A stretch of DNA of 64,000 nt from Janthinobacterium tructae (GTDB taxonomy: Bacteria; Pseudomonadota; Gammaproteobacteria; Burkholderiales; Burkholderiaceae_D): positions 5,022,001 through 5,086,000 of the forward strand of contig NZ_CP041185.1 of NCBI RefSeq assembly GCF_006517255.1, given 5' to 3'. The notes beneath the pieces are model-generated. The model worked only from the letters and a program-made list of their open reading frames with translations, ran no database searches and had not been told where the DNA came from. Below are positions 31,493 through 36,292 of the stretch, in pieces (within the stretch, counting starts at the first letter, position 1; every line of letters begins with the position of its first letter). Made by a program: the position numbers and the translations under genes.

Positions 31493-32377
31493 ATGAGCGA
31501 CATGATCACCGATTGTGAAAGTTTGCTGGGCCAGAGCAGCCTGTCCGGGCCGGACGGCCGGCGTGGTTTCCTGAAGGTAGCGCTGGGCGCGGGGTTTGCC
31601 GTGGCCGTGCTGCCCGTGGCGGCGCAAGACGTCATCAAGACGGATTCCGCCGGGCTCGTCACGGGCAGCATGTCGGTGATGGTCGATGGCCAGGCCGTGC
31701 CCGTGTATGCGGCCCAGCCGGAAGGCAAGACGGGTTTGCCCGTCGTGTTGGTCATTTCGGAAATCTTTGGCGTGCATGAACATATCGCCGACATGGCGCG
31801 CCGCTTCGCCAAACACGGGTATCTGGCGCTGGCGCCCGATCTGTTCGTGCGCCAGGGCGATCCGACCAAGGTGGCCAGCATCCCGGAGTTGATGAAAGGC
31901 ATCATTGCCAAGACGTCGGACGCGCAAGTGATGGCGGACCTCGATGCAGTTGTTGCATGGGCGAAGCAGAATGGCGGCGACACGAGCCGCCTGGGCATCA
32001 CGGGCTTTTGCTGGGGCGGGCGCATCACGTGGCTGTACGCGGCGCACAATCCGGCCGTCAAGGCGGGCGTGGCCTGGTATGGCCGCCTGGTGGGCGAAGC
32101 GACTCCTTTGCAGCCGAGCAACCCCATCGATATCGCCCCGACCTTGAAAGTCCCCGTGCTGGGCTTGTATGGCGGCAAGGATACGGGCATCAGCCAGGAA
32201 TCGATCGCGAAGATGAAAGACGCGCTGGCCAAGGGCGGCAACAAGTCGCAATTCGTCGTCTATCCCGATGCAGGCCACGCCTTCAACGCCGATTACCGCC
32301 CCAGCTACGTGGCGGCCGATGCGAAAGACGGCTATGCGCGTTGTTTAGCCTGGTTCAAGAGCCACGGTGTGGCGTGA
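31493..32377 (+). CDS. Dienelactone hydrolase family protein with Tat signal
   Basis: A 294-residue alpha/beta hydrolase. The N-terminus carries a twin-arginine signal (GRRGFLKVALGAGFAVAVL, then PVAAQ), so export in folded form is expected. The DLH core shows LPVVLVISEIFGVHEHIADM (catalytic-site Glu), YLALAPDLFVRQGDPTKVAS, the nucleophile elbow LGITGFCWGGRITWLYAAHN (Cys), LYGGKDTGIS and VVYPDAGHAFNADYRPSY (catalytic His). Dienelactone hydrolases open lactones in the chlorocatechol pathway, but Tat-exported members have no proven substrate. No aromatic degradation genes surround it. AGGGGAAACGC sets ATG 31493. Called by family only. Confidence 0.9.
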   Translation: MSDMITDCESLLGQSSLSGPDGRRGFLKVALGAGFAVAVLPVAAQDVIKTDSAGLVTGSMSVMVDGQAVPVYAAQPEGKTGLPVVLVISEIFGVHEHIADMARRFAKHGYLALAPDLFVRQGDPTKVASIPELMKGIIAKTSDAQVMADLDAVVAWAKQNGGDTSRLGITGFCWGGRITWLYAAHNPAVKAGVAWYGRLVGEATPLQPSNPIDIAPTLKVPVLGLYGGKDTGISQESIAKMKDALAKGGNKSQFVVYPDAGHAFNADYRPSYVAADAKDGYARCLAWFKSHGVA

Positions 32378-32583
32378 TCTGCAGCAGAAAAACACCGCAT
32401 TTCCCAGAAGTTAACGCGAAAGGCGCACCGGGCTGTAAAATGCCCGCTGCGCGCCAATGCAGTACAATTGCATCTTCATCGCGCCACGCTGCCGCCAGAC
32501 GCGCAAAAAATTAAACAATAGATAACAACGCATTCATCAGGCCAGACGCCAGCATCGCGGCGCCAGTGACCCGGCGCCATTTT

Positions 32584-33380
32584 GAGGTAAGAAAATCATC
32601 GATCCCGTCCTTATATCCATTTTGCTCGCGACCACGCTCGCGGGCGTGTTGAGCATTACCGCGGCGGCGATCTTTTCGTTTGCATTCCTGTCCAAGGTGG
32701 TCGAGCGCATGGTCAGCTTGTCCGTCGGCATCATGTTGTCGACGTCATTGCTGCACGCCTTGCCCGAGGCGTTCGAATCGCAGGCGGACCCGCGCAGCCT
32801 GTTCGCCACCCTGCTGGCGGGCTTGCTGGCCTTCTTCATGCTGGAAAAATTTGCCATCCTGCGCCATTCGCACCACCACGAAGGCGATGGCCACCACCAT
32901 GCGCACGGCCACGACAAGCACGAGGCGGGCAAGGCCGGCTGGATGATCCTGGTCGGCGACGGCATGCACAATTTTACCGATGGCATCCTGATCGCCGCCG
33001 CCTTCCTGGCCGACCCGAAGCTGGGCCTGGTGACGGGACTGGCCATCATCGCGCATGAAATCCCGCAGGAAATCGGCGACTTTATCGTGCTGCTCAATGC
33101 CGGCTTCTCGCGTCTGCGCGCGTATATCTTCAATCTGCTGTGCAGCCTGATGGCGGTGGCCGGCGGCTTGCTCGGCTATTTCACCCTGGACCGCGCCAGC
33201 AATCTGATTCCCTACGTGCTCGTGTTCGCCTCGTCCGGCTTCATCTATATCGCCTTGAGCGATCTGATGCCGCAGATGCAGCGCCGCGCCACCCTGCGCG
33301 AAACCATCCCGCAAGTGCTGCTGATCGCATTGGGCGTGTGCATCGTGCTGTTCCTGACGCATAAGCGCCACGGCGGTTGA
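32584..33380 (+). CDS. ZIP-family metal transporter; start codon uncertain, probably non-AUG
   Basis: A ZIP-type (SLC39) divalent metal permease of about 250-260 residues. Features: TM1 (LISILLATTLAGVLSITAAA), a His-rich cytosolic loop (HSHHHEGDGHHHAHGHDKHE), the metal site of TM4 (GDGMHNFTDGILIAAAFL, with HNxxD) and of TM5 (IAHEIPQEIGDFIVLLNAGF, HEIPQE), and further helices to VLLIALGVCIVLFL. Substrate is probably zinc or iron. No ATG, GTG or CTG begins TM1. The first canonical start, TTG 32622, would cut into TM1 and lacks a ribosome site. GAGG at 32584-32587 lies seven bases before ATC ATC (32595-32600), suggesting ATC initiation. The feature is drawn from that ribosome site. An in-frame TGA at 32583 limits any longer start. 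Confidence 0.88.
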
Positions 33381-33388
33381 TGCACCGT

Positions 33389-33419
33389 TTTACCTGCGCA
33401 GTGCCAGCTATGCTATATT
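33389..33419 (+). promoter_or_regulatory. Probable promoter of the leader ORF / ABC-F unit
   Basis: An extended -10, TGC TATATT (33411-33419), lies 40 bases before the leader ORF. A weak -35-like TTTACC is further upstream with long spacing. The extended -10 is what supports the call. Confidence 0.5.
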
Positions 33420-33458
33420 GCCTTTTTGACTAACTAGAACAGAAAGGAGGAAAATATA

Positions 33459-33548
33459 ATGGAAGAAAATTTGTTGCTCGCCTTGTGGCGCGCACGCTCT
33501 TTAAGCGCATTTGCCCGCTCTTGCCCACGTTTTATCGCGCTGCGATAA
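33459..33548 (+). CDS. 29-residue leader peptide upstream of the ABC-F gene
   Basis: ATG 33459 follows a near-perfect Shine-Dalgarno, AAGGAGG (33444-33450), at eight-base spacing, the strongest ribosome site in the window. The ORF encodes MEENLLLALWRARSLSAFAR followed by SCPRFIALR, then TAA (33546-33548). It has no signal peptide or known domain. The position, 108 bases before an ABC-F ATPase that has only a weak ribosome site (CAAGAG), is that of regulatory leader peptides. A CCTCCT at 33569-33574, just after the stop, is complementary to its AGGAGG. Expression as a peptide is inferred; the ribosome site and ORF are seen directly. Confidence 0.65.
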   Translation: MEENLLLALWRARSLSAFARSCPRFIALR

Positions 33549-33656
33549 CCTGGCCAGAGCAAAGCCACCCTCCTAAACGAGTCCTTTCCTGGTACTCCGT
33601 TGTCGTTAGCGCTCCTGTTAACGCGGATGCTTGCATCCCGAACAAAGACAAGAGCC
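33549..33656 (+). promoter_or_regulatory. Putative translational attenuator between leader peptide and ABC-F gene
   Basis: This spacer holds CCTCCT (33569-33574), able to pair with the leader's AGGAGG (33445-33450). It also has a small hairpin, GGATG-CTTG-CATCC (33625-33638), 20 bases before the ABC-F start. There is no T-run terminator, so any control would be translational. The pairings are seen; the switch is inference. Confidence 0.45.
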
Positions 33657-35393
33657 ATGACTACCCTTATCTCTACCCAAGCTTTACAGCTGGACACCCA
33701 CGACGGTTTCCTCTTCAATGAACTCGCCTTTACCTTGCGCCAGGGCGACCGCATCGGCCTGATCGGCCACAATGGCTGCGGCAAATCCACCTTGCTGGGC
33801 TTGCTCAGCGGCACGCGGGAAGCCACGTCCGGCACCATCCATGTCGCCCGTGCCTGCCGTTTGCAGCACGTGGAACAGCACTTGCCAGCCGAACTTGCCA
33901 GCCTGAGCCTGTACGACGCCTTGCTGGCGCCCGTGCTGGAGCAGCCGGAACTGCATTGGCGGATCGACAGCCTGCTGGCCGAGTTAGGCTTCGAGCACGA
34001 GACGGCGCAAGTGCCCGTGCATTCCTTGTCCGGCGGCCAGCACACGCGGCTGCTGCTGGGGCGTGCCCTGCTGCAGGAACCGAACGTGCTGCTGCTCGAC
34101 GAGCCGAGCAATCACCTGGACTTGCCGTCGCTGCTGTGGCTGGAGCAATTCCTGTTGAGCTGGCGCGGCGCCTTCATCCTCGTCTCGCACGACCAGCGCC
34201 TGCTCGACAACGTGGCCACGCGCAGCTGGATCTTGCGCGATAGCCGGCTGTACGACTTCGACTTGCCGTGCGGCCCGGCGCTGGCGGCGCTGGCCGAAGC
34301 CGATCTTGCCGCTGCCGCCCGGCATGCGGCCGAACAGAAGGAAATCGACCGCCTGGCCGTCAGCAGCACCCGCCTGGCCTTGTGGGGCAAGATCTACGAT
34401 AACGTCGGCATGGCGCGCAAGGCCAAGAGCATGCAGCGGCGCATCGACAAGCTGCAGGATGAACAGTCGTTCGTCAGCGATGGCGCGCCCTGGCGCCTGA
34501 CTCTGCGCGGCAAGGCGCTGGCGGCCGACCAGCTGCTGGCGCTCGATGCGCTGGACGTGCGCGCCGTGCCGACGTCTCCCGTGCTGTTTCAGGTGGGCCA
34601 GCTGTGGCTGAAACCGGGCGACAGGGTCGCCTTGCTGGGCGCCAACGGCAGTGGCAAGTCGTCGCTGCTGCGCCAGTGCTGGCAAGCGATCCAGGCGCAG
34701 GAGGAATGGGCTGACCTGCGTTACCACCACGCGGCCAACATCGGTTACTACGACCAGTCGCTCAGGCAACTGGCCGATACGGCCGACCTGTCCGACGCCC
34801 TGTACCCGTTTGCCGTGCAAAACGAGGCGGCGCGCAGCCAGGTGGCGCGCAAGCAAGCCTTGATTTCAGCCGGTTTCCCGTATGCACGCCATGGCCAGAC
34901 GGTGGCCACCCTGAGCGGCGGCGAGAGGGCGCGGCTGCTGTTCCTGGGCCTGTCGCTGGCCAGCTATCATTTGCTGCTGCTGGACGAACCCAGCAACCAC
35001 CTGGACATGCAGGGCAAGGCGGAACTGGGGCAAGCCTTGCGCGGCTTCGAGGGAGGCTGCCTGCTGGTGTCGCACGACCGCGACCTGATCGAGACGGCCT
35101 GCAACCGTTTTTGGGTGGTGGCCGATGGCCAGCTGGAAGAGTGGCCAGACGCGGCCAGCGCCTATGCAAGGCTGAGCGCCGAGGATGGGCCGGCGTTGAT
35201 ACCCGCGCCGCGCGTGGAGCAGGCGTCTGCGGTACTGACGGACATCGACGTGCAACTGGAGCGTTTGTGCGAACTGGAGCAATTGCTGGCGGAAGACCTG
35301 GCGAGAAAACCGCGCCATCAGAAGGCGGCCAGCCAGCAGGCGTGGCAGGCGGAACTGGAACAGTTGAATCAAGCGCTGGGGATAACGTCGTAG
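33657..35393 (+). CDS. ABC-F family ATPase (two ABC domains, no membrane segment)
   Basis: A 578-residue soluble protein with two ABC cassettes. First: LIGHNGCGKSTLLGLLSG (Walker A), HSLSGGQHTRLLLGRALLQE (signature) and VLLLDEPSNHLDLPSLLWLE (Walker B). A short linker (about 210-265) with Ala-rich and Arg/Lys-rich helices (IYDNVGMARKAKSMQRRIDK) follows. Second: LLGANGSGKSSLLRQCW, ATLSGGERARLLFLGLSLAS and LLLLDEPSNHLDMQGKAELG. ABC-F proteins act on ribosomes, as translation factors or antibiotic-resistance factors. This one has a compact interdomain linker and I cannot assign it to a named subgroup. ATG 33657 begins MTTLISTQAL. The leader ORF upstream suggests translation-sensitive induction. 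A terminator follows. Confidence 0.92.
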   Translation: MTTLISTQALQLDTHDGFLFNELAFTLRQGDRIGLIGHNGCGKSTLLGLLSGTREATSGTIHVARACRLQHVEQHLPAELASLSLYDALLAPVLEQPELHWRIDSLLAELGFEHETAQVPVHSLSGGQHTRLLLGRALLQEPNVLLLDEPSNHLDLPSLLWLEQFLLSWRGAFILVSHDQRLLDNVATRSWILRDSRLYDFDLPCGPALAALAEADLAAAARHAAEQKEIDRLAVSSTRLALWGKIYDNVGMARKAKSMQRRIDKLQDEQSFVSDGAPWRLTLRGKALAADQLLALDALDVRAVPTSPVLFQVGQLWLKPGDRVALLGANGSGKSSLLRQCWQAIQAQEEWADLRYHHAANIGYYDQSLRQLADTADLSDALYPFAVQNEAARSQVARKQALISAGFPYARHGQTVATLSGGERARLLFLGLSLASYHLLLLDEPSNHLDMQGKAELGQALRGFEGGCLLVSHDRDLIETACNRFWVVADGQLEEWPDAASAYARLSAEDGPALIPAPRVEQASAVLTDIDVQLERLCELEQLLAEDLARKPRHQKAASQQAWQAELEQLNQALGITS

Positions 35394-35408
35394 TTATCCA
35401 CTGGTAAG

Positions 35409-35442
35409 AAAATGGCGGACCATCTGGTCCGCCATTTTTTTT
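35409..35442. terminator. Bidirectional intrinsic terminator
   Basis: AAAATGGCGGACCA-TC-TGGTCCGCCA is followed by a run of T; a stem of about ten pairs with A and T tracts. It lies between the convergent ABC-F gene and the sulfurtransferase gene, just touching the stop of the latter. Confidence 0.93.
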
Positions 35443-36292
35443 AAGTCGCCGTCGCCACGGGCCGCGCCGGATCGGCGCACCACTCGCTCCACGATCCGGG
35501 ATACAAGGCGGCGCCCGGCAAGCCCGCCACTTCCAGGGCCAGCAGGTTGTGGCACGCCGTCACACCGGAGCCGCATTGCAGGATAGTAGATTCAGCCGTG
35601 CTGATCAGGCCCGCGAATTCCTGCTCCAGTTCTTTGGCGGATTTGAAGCGGCCATCCGCCTGCAAGTTATCCTTGAAGAAACGGTTTTTCGCGCCGGGGA
35701 TATGGCCGCCCACGGGGTCGATGGTTTCGTTTTCACCGCGATAGCGGTCGGGGGCGCGCGCGTCGATCACCGTCAAGGCCTGGGTTTCCAGGTTGGCAAC
35801 GACGTCCTGCACGCTGACCGTGCGCGTCAGGCTGGCTTTCTCCCTCAGATTGCCAACAGGGCGCGGCGCCACGGGGGTGACCAGCGGCAAGCCTTGCGCC
35901 TGCCAGGCGGCCAGGCCGCCGTCGAGTACGGCCACGGCTGGATGGCCGAGCCAGCGCAGCAGCCACCACAGACGGGCGGCGAACATGCCGCCCTGGCCGT
36001 CATAGGCGACCACTTGCGTGTCGTCGTCGATGCCCCAGCCGCGCAAGGTGGCCAGCAGGGCGTTGCGGTCGGGCAAGGGATGCCGTCCGGTAAATTGGGG
36101 GCCGCGCATCGTCTTGGGGCCGGACAGGGCCGTGTCGATGTCGGCAAACTGCGCGTTCTGGATGTGGCCGGCGGCAAACGCGTCGCTGCCGGCCGTGGGG
36201 TTGAGCAAGTCGTGGCGGCAATCGAGAATGACCCAGTCGCTGTCATTCAGGTGGCTGACCAGTTCGCTGGTCTGGATCAAGGTGGTGTACAT
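35441..36292 (-). CDS. 3-mercaptopyruvate / thiosulfate sulfurtransferase (two rhodanese domains)
   Basis: A 283-residue protein with tandem rhodanese domains. The first, inactive domain (about 5-140) has WVILDCRHDLLNPTAGSDAF, GHIQNAQFADIDTALSG and QVVAYDGQGGMFAARLWWLL. The second, active domain (about 160-283) has VIDARAPDRYRGENETIDPV, GHIPGAKNRFF and the active-site loop ILQCGSGVTACHNLLALEVA. The loop CGSGVT is the mercaptopyruvate-type form; thiosulfate-preferring enzymes have CRxGxT. The reaction moves sulfane sulfur to thiol or cyanide acceptors. ATG 36292 begins MYTTLIQTSE; upstream in-frame sequence belongs to the permease gene. It is the downstream partner of the DMT permease, 13 bases away. 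Confidence 0.92.
   Translation of the reverse strand: MYTTLIQTSELVSHLNDSDWVILDCRHDLLNPTAGSDAFAAGHIQNAQFADIDTALSGPKTMRGPQFTGRHPLPDRNALLATLRGWGIDDDTQVVAYDGQGGMFAARLWWLLRWLGHPAVAVLDGGLAAWQAQGLPLVTPVAPRPVGNLREKASLTRTVSVQDVVANLETQALTVIDARAPDRYRGENETIDPVGGHIPGAKNRFFKDNLQADGRFKSAKELEQEFAGLISTAESTILQCGSGVTACHNLLALEVAGLPGAALYPGSWSEWCADPARPVATAT

Follow-up and report, generated by a model that had tools for sequence, protein, structure and literature searches.

A probable leader-peptide attenuator, built on a four-segment RNA, upstream of an accessory ABC-F gene in Janthinobacterium tructae and its proteobacterial relatives

An attenuator of the ermC type combines a leader open reading frame (ORF) with four RNA segments that are complementary as 1:2, 2:3 and 3:4; the ribosome site of the main gene is closed and opens when a ribosome stalls on the leader. 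Here we analyze a region of comparable design upstream of a gene for an ABC-F ATPase in Janthinobacterium tructae, located in a 64,000-nucleotide stretch of its genome (NZ_CP041185.1, positions 5,022,001 to 5,086,000) that we call the window and whose coordinates are used throughout. Leader control of ABC-F genes has been described for msrD, cplR, vmlR, lsaA and tiaA/are5sc, which are induced by antibiotic stalling; the leader-controlled resistance ABC-Fs treated in these sources are all Gram-positive, and the leaders quoted there, such as MYLIFM, MR[I/M], MIN, MAGN and MVGDDDISG, have 3 to 9 residues (PMC10314930, PMC10201436, PMC12421871). For msrD and cplR, intrinsic terminators are described (PMC10314930, PMC10201436). 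In Escherichia coli, the toiL leader pairs with the ribosome site downstream at topAI, and stalled ribosomes break the hairpin (PMC12121999).

The J. tructae region shares with the ermC type a translated-type leader ORF with its own ribosome site upstream, judged from sequence and found in 77 of 78 loci, as well as competing 1:2 and 2:3 helices, which are indicated by partner-swap tests (also at 10 loci) and by ribosome-state folding. Helix 3:4 is less certain: a swap test and the fold of gammaproteobacterial sequences argue for it, whereas it shows no double changes, is absent from the beta-type fold and forms few pairs in the folding models. Unlike the ermC type, the region occurs in proteobacteria and before an ABC-F gene, co-evolution links its segment 1 to the ribosome site of the ABC-F gene itself (1:4), 3:4 is the weakest helix, and two highly conserved hairpins stand between segments 3 and 4. 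A leader ORF before an ABC-F gene is common to this locus and the Gram-positive systems cited above, but here it has 26-31 codons and an internal conserved motif. The window peptide shows no sequence relationship to the leaders given in PMC10314930 and PMC10201436, and the window, unlike msrD and cplR as described, has no terminator-like site in 33330-33720. For the pairing of leader codons with a downstream ribosome site, toiL-topAI is the closest of the systems cited, and it is likewise Gram-negative; however, toiL controls a toxin-antitoxin operon, and the account in PMC12121999 describes one repressive hairpin and no 2:3 alternative. We conclude that the region most likely serves as a ribosome-dependent translational attenuator, and that the accessory ABC-F under its control probably protects ribosomes.

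The leader and the ABC-F gene are constant partners. Of 40 genus genomes, 29 carry the ABC-F gene, and DNA similar to 33389-33660 was present in these 29 and in none of the others. We examined 78 ABC-F loci, 60 of them distinct by 1 kb of sequence, which comprised 29 loci from the genus, 6 from the family, 4 from the order, 21 of 26 further loci and 18 of 40 plasmid-collection records, and covered Burkholderiales, Enterobacterales, Aeromonas and Vibrionaceae. An ATG-started ORF behind a GGAGG-type site was found within 280 bases upstream of the ABC-F gene in all 78, a count that is partly built in since the site was part of the search criterion. The leader was intact in 77 loci, with 26-31 codons, a final Arg and 97-129 bases between its stop and the ABC-F start; conservation of ORF and ribosome site had been proposed as a check in an earlier, sequence-only reading of the window, and this check turned out in favor of the leader. 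The exception, a Pseudomonas silvicola record (L103, CP093281.1), has a 13-codon frame; as its ABC-F match also falls into three pieces, record quality is a likely reason, and the locus is possibly a decaying copy. L103 was dropped, and a 93% rule reduced the other 77 loci to 35 dereplicated loci.

A covariance model of the element (R1) identified one strong copy in each of the 29 ABC-F genus genomes (E ≤ 5.3e-32) and, elsewhere in the 40 genus genomes, only four weak matches (E 0.22-0.98). Within these 40 genomes no strong match lay outside the ABC-F genomes, and the idea of an element that occurs without the ABC-F gene was rejected. Among 399 genomes of the order, R1 found the five with the ABC-F gene plus three weak partial matches (64-77 bases, E 0.001-0.008). 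The YheS-like and YbiT-like ABC-Fs of the source genome (L126 and L127, found at E ≤ 1e-35) had no short ORF behind a GGAGG-type site upstream of the first three candidate starts of each, and far ABC-F relatives (L086-L088, 27-30% identity) showed no matching layout by eye.

The sequence-only reading had proposed that this ABC-F gene is controlled by ribosome stalling on a 29-codon leader with the strongest ribosome site in the window. The ORF is there (peptide MEENLLLALWRARSLSAFARSCPRFIALR), and its ribosome site ranks first of 4694 start-codon sites by duplex energy with the anti-Shine-Dalgarno sequence, counting start codons of frames of at least 20 codons on both strands of the window. The duplex energy is -11.6 kcal/mol for the leader site and -0.9 kcal/mol for the ABC-F site, which lies at the end of a 108-base spacer between the leader stop and the ATG at 33657; spacer and weak downstream site were as first described. 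Across the 35 dereplicated loci the leader-site energy stays between -11.6 and -12.9 kcal/mol.

Within the genus, the leader is under codon-level selection in its 5' part. For codons -20 to -11 from the stop, the ratio of nonsynonymous to synonymous polymorphism (pN/pS) is 0.36 in the reading frame, whereas the two shifted frames give 0.83 and 1.26, a contrast that points to selection at the peptide level; translation itself is a reading of the sequence. Across the 35 dereplicated loci the peptide drifts strongly outside a few positions: [F/L/Y] followed by [G/S] occurs in all 35, [R/H] stands two residues before [F/L/Y] in 28, and the final residue is Arg in all 35 (33 CGA and 2 CGT codons). 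In one Janthinobacterium locus removed by dereplication (L044, same as L076), Ser replaces [F/L/Y]. The [G/S] codons are RGY in 34 of the 35 loci and TCC in one; the TCC codon favors a peptide-level reason for [G/S], and an RNA-level reason may still apply given the 34 RGY codons. The +x+ macrolide motif (PMC10314930) was considered as a family motif and rejected: the window leader has RAR, and the motif is absent from relatives with DAR, GVRAF or SHFF. Segment 1 starts at the fourth codon past [G/S].

Four RNA segments (Table 1) co-evolve across the loci. Segment 1 reads GCUCUUGCC in the window, GCUCAAGC in Klebsiella, ACUCAGGC in Morganella and GCGCUUACC in L093. We compared the duplex energy of each segment pair with that of partners swapped between the 35 dereplicated loci (10,000 permutations; windows at fixed offsets, picked after the sequences had been inspected). 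Own partners were better than swapped ones for 1:2 (-17.0 versus -13.6 kcal/mol), 2:3 (-15.7 versus -13.4) and 1:4 (-12.9 versus -10.0), each at p < 1e-4, and for 3:4 (-10.9 versus -9.8) at p = 0.0012. The control pairs 1:3 and 2:4, which the model does not need, gave p = 0.87 and p = 0.40. The pattern was kept at 18 loci below 80% identity and 10 loci below 70%. Perfect helices of at least seven pairs occurred for 1:2 in 23/35 loci (21% of shuffles) and for 1:4 in 27/35 (19%), with a smaller excess for 2:3 (18/35; 33%) and 3:4 (11/35; 23%).

Consensus folding agrees with much of this architecture. The RNA alignments held 30 of the 35 loci, 18 beta-type and 12 gamma (L051, L053, L094, L108 and L110 were left out). 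Unguided RNAalifold returned, for the 12 gamma sequences, a 1:2 helix enclosing hairpin P2 and a 3:4 helix (GCUUAC:GUAAGC) enclosing hairpins A and B; for the 18 beta-type sequences, 17 of which are from Burkholderiales and Aeromonas, it returned 1:2, P2, A and B. In the beta-type alignment, the off state has 93.4% of cells paired and 12 double changes, helix 2:3 has 77.8% and 10, and helix 1:4 has 87.7% and 4, counts of double changes that none of 500 shuffles matched in any of the three. Three pairs of 2:3 carry a double change, a level reached by 368 of the 500 shuffles. Hairpin P2 shows little covariation in the beta-type set because it is nearly invariant there. In beta-type loci such as L061, L063, L091 and L093, segment 3 and a GAG-rich stretch just upstream of it can also form a local hairpin, a possible third state of the switch.

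These segments are not the ones that the sequence-only reading had singled out. It had pointed to a CCTCCT, said to lie 21 bases past the leader stop, as a partner of the leader ribosome site. The CCTCCT is present at 33569-33574, 20 bases past the stop, but its pairing with the leader site fares no better at its own locus than with swapped partners (p = 0.73). The hexamer is kept unchanged in 20 of the 29 genus loci but in none of 26 dereplicated loci outside the genus, and its pairing with the leader site was rejected as part of the switch. The actual switch appears to lie in other segments, of which one is located within the leader ORF. What holds of the proposed attenuator is its core: given the constant partnership, the codon selection in the 5' part, the co-evolving segments and the patchy ABC-F gene, a leader-peptide attenuator before an accessory ABC-F is strongly supported.

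The same findings bear on a trans-acting role, in which the leader ORF would encode a small protein and the RNA pairing would be incidental. Such a protein would fit with the strength of the ribosome site and with the selection on codons of the 5' part. Few residues are constant across families, however, partner and distance are constant, and segment 1, which lies inside the ORF, co-evolves with the ABC-F ribosome site; we therefore regard this explanation as barely credible.

To relate the segments to ribosome positions, the 35 RNAs were folded with a 30-base ribosome footprint held unpaired, in three states: no ribosome, a stall four codons past [G/S], and a ribosome at the leader stop. Without a ribosome, the mean numbers of pairs were 4.7 for 1:2, 5.5 for 1:4, 10.8 for 2:3 and 1.7 for 3:4. 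With the stall, 2:3 rose to 15.4 and 3:4 fell to 0.8, while 1:2 and 1:4 were zero; with the ribosome at the stop, 1:4 had 6.7, 2:3 had 2.0 and 3:4 had 1.3 pairs. The exchange was clearest in the window RNA, with 10.1 pairs of 1:2 in the absence of a ribosome, 12.9 of 2:3 on stalling and 6.8 of 1:4 at the stop. The ABC-F site was more open with the stall than without a ribosome in 25/35 loci and than in the stop state in 28/35. Moving the P site along the leader changed the mean cost of opening the site by -0.01 kcal/mol one codon before [G/S], by -0.95 at [G/S], by about -1.9 at +3 to +6, and by +0.5 and +1.3 at +13 and +14. The stop state cost over 1 kcal/mol more than the stall in 26/35 loci, compared with 54% of shuffled spacers.

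Comparison of the loci brings out, at the sequence level, a conserved ORF, co-evolving segments, a strong upstream and a weak downstream ribosome site, and a constant gene partner; the models suggest which helix may form in which ribosome state. The strong site would ensure steady translation of the leader. In the idle RNA, the partner of segment 1 would be either segment 2 or segment 4. Once a ribosome reaches the leader stop, it would cover segment 2 and leave segment 1 free behind it, so that 1:4 locks the ABC-F site, with 3:4 as a further possible lock. A ribosome stalled from about the [F/L/Y][G/S] codons on would instead cover segment 1 and block both 1:2 and 1:4, whereupon segment 2 would take segment 3 and the ABC-F site would become easier to open. 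We infer that ribosomes do stall on the leader, that a compound bound at the peptidyl-transferase centre or in the tunnel may be the cause, and that the ABC-F would relieve the stall.

Several results weigh against this reading. No frame signal is seen in the final ten codons of the leader (genus pN/pS 0.68 in frame, 0.70 and 0.63 shifted), so that codon selection holds for the 5' part and not for the end; the lack of contrast there is attributable to the location of these codons in RNA helices. Helix 3:4 is not significant in the swap test at 6 loci (p = 0.17), has no double changes in either alignment, is absent from the unguided beta-type fold, where a local hairpin using segment 3 is preferred, and forms few pairs in the ribosome-state models; in the window, 2:3 and 3:4 overlap by merely 2-3 bases of segment 3. 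Helix 3:4 is accordingly the weakest helix, and 1:4 may be the main lock. The predicted opening of the ABC-F site is also modest: its mean unpaired fraction is 0.34 without a ribosome, 0.42 with the stall and 0.36 at the stop (0.37, 0.55 and 0.50 in the window), and the opening cost in the window falls by at most 0.8 kcal/mol. Shuffled spacers keep a smaller effect (mean 1.91 versus 3.29 kcal/mol), and in 8/35 loci the lowest opening cost precedes the motif codon. Because the predicted opening is modest, the case for a switch leans on co-evolution more than on energies.

Hairpins A and B raise another explanation, namely that they serve to bind a ligand or a protein, with the leader contributing translational coupling only. 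Across 33603-33643, which spans both hairpins with their loops, mean identity in the genus is 98.5%, compared with 79.7% at fourfold sites in ABC-F codons 2-60, and the near-invariance of their primary sequence exceeds what pairing needs; at the foot of hairpin A, UCGUYAGC is found in 15/18 beta-type and 7/12 gamma sequences. The segment 4 region (33644-33656) has a mean identity of 98.9% in the genus. However, beta-type loci have other loops in A and B than gamma-type loci, no Rfam family matched within 33389-33660 at E ≤ 1, and segment 1, made up of leader codons, co-evolves with segments 2 and 4. A binding element of this kind thus seems very improbable compared with an attenuator.

The controlled step is likely translation, since no terminator-like site was found in 33330-33720 of the window. 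Control of transcription is the alternative: Rho or RNA polymerase would stop within the spacer, except where this is prevented by a ribosome stalled on the leader or by translation of the ABC-F gene. Precedents exist in msrD, described as transcription attenuation (PMC10314930), in cplR, described as controlled at both levels (PMC10201436), and at topAI, where repressed translation leads to Rho termination (PMC12121999). Set against these are the missing terminator-like site, from a scan of which Rho sites were not part, and the conserved pairings, which end on the ABC-F ribosome site. We consider control at transcription improbable and translational attenuation the better account of the locus.

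The window protein is an ABC-F by family and fold. PF00005 matched above its cut-off in two stretches, and the structure model (predicted local distance difference test score 84.7) has linker helices at 205-246 and 250-269 and no membrane domain. Its best structural matches are ABC-Fs, among which resistance and housekeeping proteins score alike, so that the comparison does not separate the two. Among the best 25 of 192 curated models, no resistance ABC-F model reached its cut-off (the best, NF000355, gave 302.7 bits against 380, and other resistance models were far lower), and the resistance role for this reason stays a prediction.

The gene is accessory and patchy. It is present in 29/40 genomes of the genus (E ≤ 1e-150), in 27/294 of the family, 6 of these outside the genus, and in 5/399 of the order including the source genome (both E ≤ 1e-120); in samples of the class (369 genomes) and the phylum (60) only the source genome reached the cut-off. 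The plasmid collection holds 39 more distant relatives, each below 60% identity, from Pantoea, Rahnella, Vibrio, Klebsiella, Proteus, Aeromonas, Ewingella, Morganella, Pseudomonas and Photobacterium, and Buttiauxella has one relative at 55% identity. In that Buttiauxella brennerae locus (L085, 2501-4210), the ABC-F frame stops at 561 codons and similarity to the query runs beyond the stop. Three records labelled plasmid (L095, L096 and L106, from Aeromonas, Klebsiella and Proteus) measure 4.1-5.4 Mb and are by size probably chromosomes; a Morganella record (L107) is plasmid-sized at 50.6 kb.

This distribution recalls PAF1, a proteobacterial ABCF subfamily that Murina et al. 2019 (PMC6723617) describe as patchy and as present in Vibrio and Klebsiella and not in Escherichia, and whose members they predict to be resistance factors. 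Relatives of the window protein occur in Vibrio and Klebsiella, and a Klebsiella stretch bearing the ABC-F gene had no blastn match in the E. coli collection. The window ABC-F fits the distribution of PAF1, and its assignment to the subfamily is made on that basis. The main text of PMC6723617 makes no mention of a leader, uORF (upstream ORF) or attenuation, and that of uORF4u makes none of Proteobacteria. Among the papers listed by full-text searches of the open literature, titles and abstract beginnings yielded no leader of a proteobacterial chromosomal ABC-F; papers outside that literature were not covered.

Some ABC-Fs act on stalled ribosomes without any drug, which suggests that the same switch could answer to another trigger: an intrinsic or metabolite-dependent arrest peptide, or a sensor of slow translation, with the ABC-F rescuing the stall as feedback. 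In keeping with this, MsrD itself is described as damping msrD expression via the leader (PMC10314930), and the drift of the peptide outside a few positions would suit a broad sensor like toiL, for which several drug classes are described (PMC12121999). On the other hand, the gene is accessory and patchy (29/40 genus genomes), as is said of resistance ABC-Fs (PMC6723617), and the leaders contain no conserved run of one codon of the kind that would point to amino-acid sensing. Such a trigger seems to us unlikely. A specific form of the attenuator reading, which we hold about as readily as we doubt it, is that this is an undescribed attenuator family of beta- and gammaproteobacteria that senses ribosome-targeting compounds via a new arrest motif, [R/H]x[F/L/Y][G/S], placed so that a stalled ribosome just reaches the switch, and that turns on PAF1 ABC-Fs.

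Table 1. Features of the leader region and the ABC-F gene, in window coordinates.
Feature	Position	Strand	Evidence or remark
Putative extended -10 (TGCTATATT)	33411..33419	+	Sequence; identical copy in 15/29 genus loci
Leader ribosome site (AAGGAGG)	33444..33450	+	8 bases 5' of ATG 33459
Leader ORF, 29 codons + TAA	33459..33548	+	Intact ORF in relatives; codon-level selection
Peptide motif R-S-L-S, possible arrest motif; family form [R/H]-x-[F/L/Y]-[G/S]	33495..33506	+	
Segment 1 (GCUCUUGCC), within leader ORF; partner segment 2 or segment 4	33517..33525	+	
Hairpin P2 (AUCGC-GCU-GCGAU), spans last leader codons and stop	33534..33546	+	De novo consensus folds
Segment 2 (GGCCAGAGC and AAAG), 3' of leader stop	33552..33564	+	Swap tests 1:2, 2:3
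Segment 3	33584..33604	+	Bases for 2:3 in its 5' part, for 3:4 in its 3' part
Hairpin A (CGUUAGC-GCUCCU-GUUAACG)	33604..33623	+	Consensus folds; 97.6% of cells paired
Hairpin B (GGAUG-CUUG-CAUCC)	33625..33638	+	Consensus folds; 96.6% of cells paired
Segment 4, weak ABC-F ribosome site (GACAAGAGCC)	33647..33656	+	Pairs with segments 1 and 3
ABC-F gene, 578 aa	33657..35393	+	Two ABC_tran domains; ABC-F fold

The surroundings of the region add a few details. In the 6.31 Mb source genome, a gene for a ZIP-family transporter ends at 33380, upstream of the leader region. The extended -10 noticed in the sequence-only reading does occur at 33411-33419; because it is exact in only 15 of 29 genus loci and is not among the matches of a consensus promoter scan, a promoter there is plausible and is listed as putative. 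Directly 3' of the ABC-F gene, a perfect hairpin followed by a T run (35410-35442) resembles its terminator. Rfam gave five weak matches in 32350-35500, and sub-threshold matches to Xoo2 and SorY overlap this hairpin.

If the specific reading is true, PAF1 would provide Gram-negative bacteria with an intrinsic, inducible system of ribosome protection, and its lock would be an unusual one in which the leader's own codons shut the downstream ribosome site after each normal completion of the leader. A predicted ABC-F subfamily of Klebsiella, Vibrio, Proteus and environmental relatives would then have its own sensor, which would support the predicted role of these ABC-Fs and allow a direct test of the compounds they answer to. 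Should the conserved peptide motif prove to be an arrest motif, it would open a new way to study how the ribosome is halted by nascent chains and tunnel-binding compounds.

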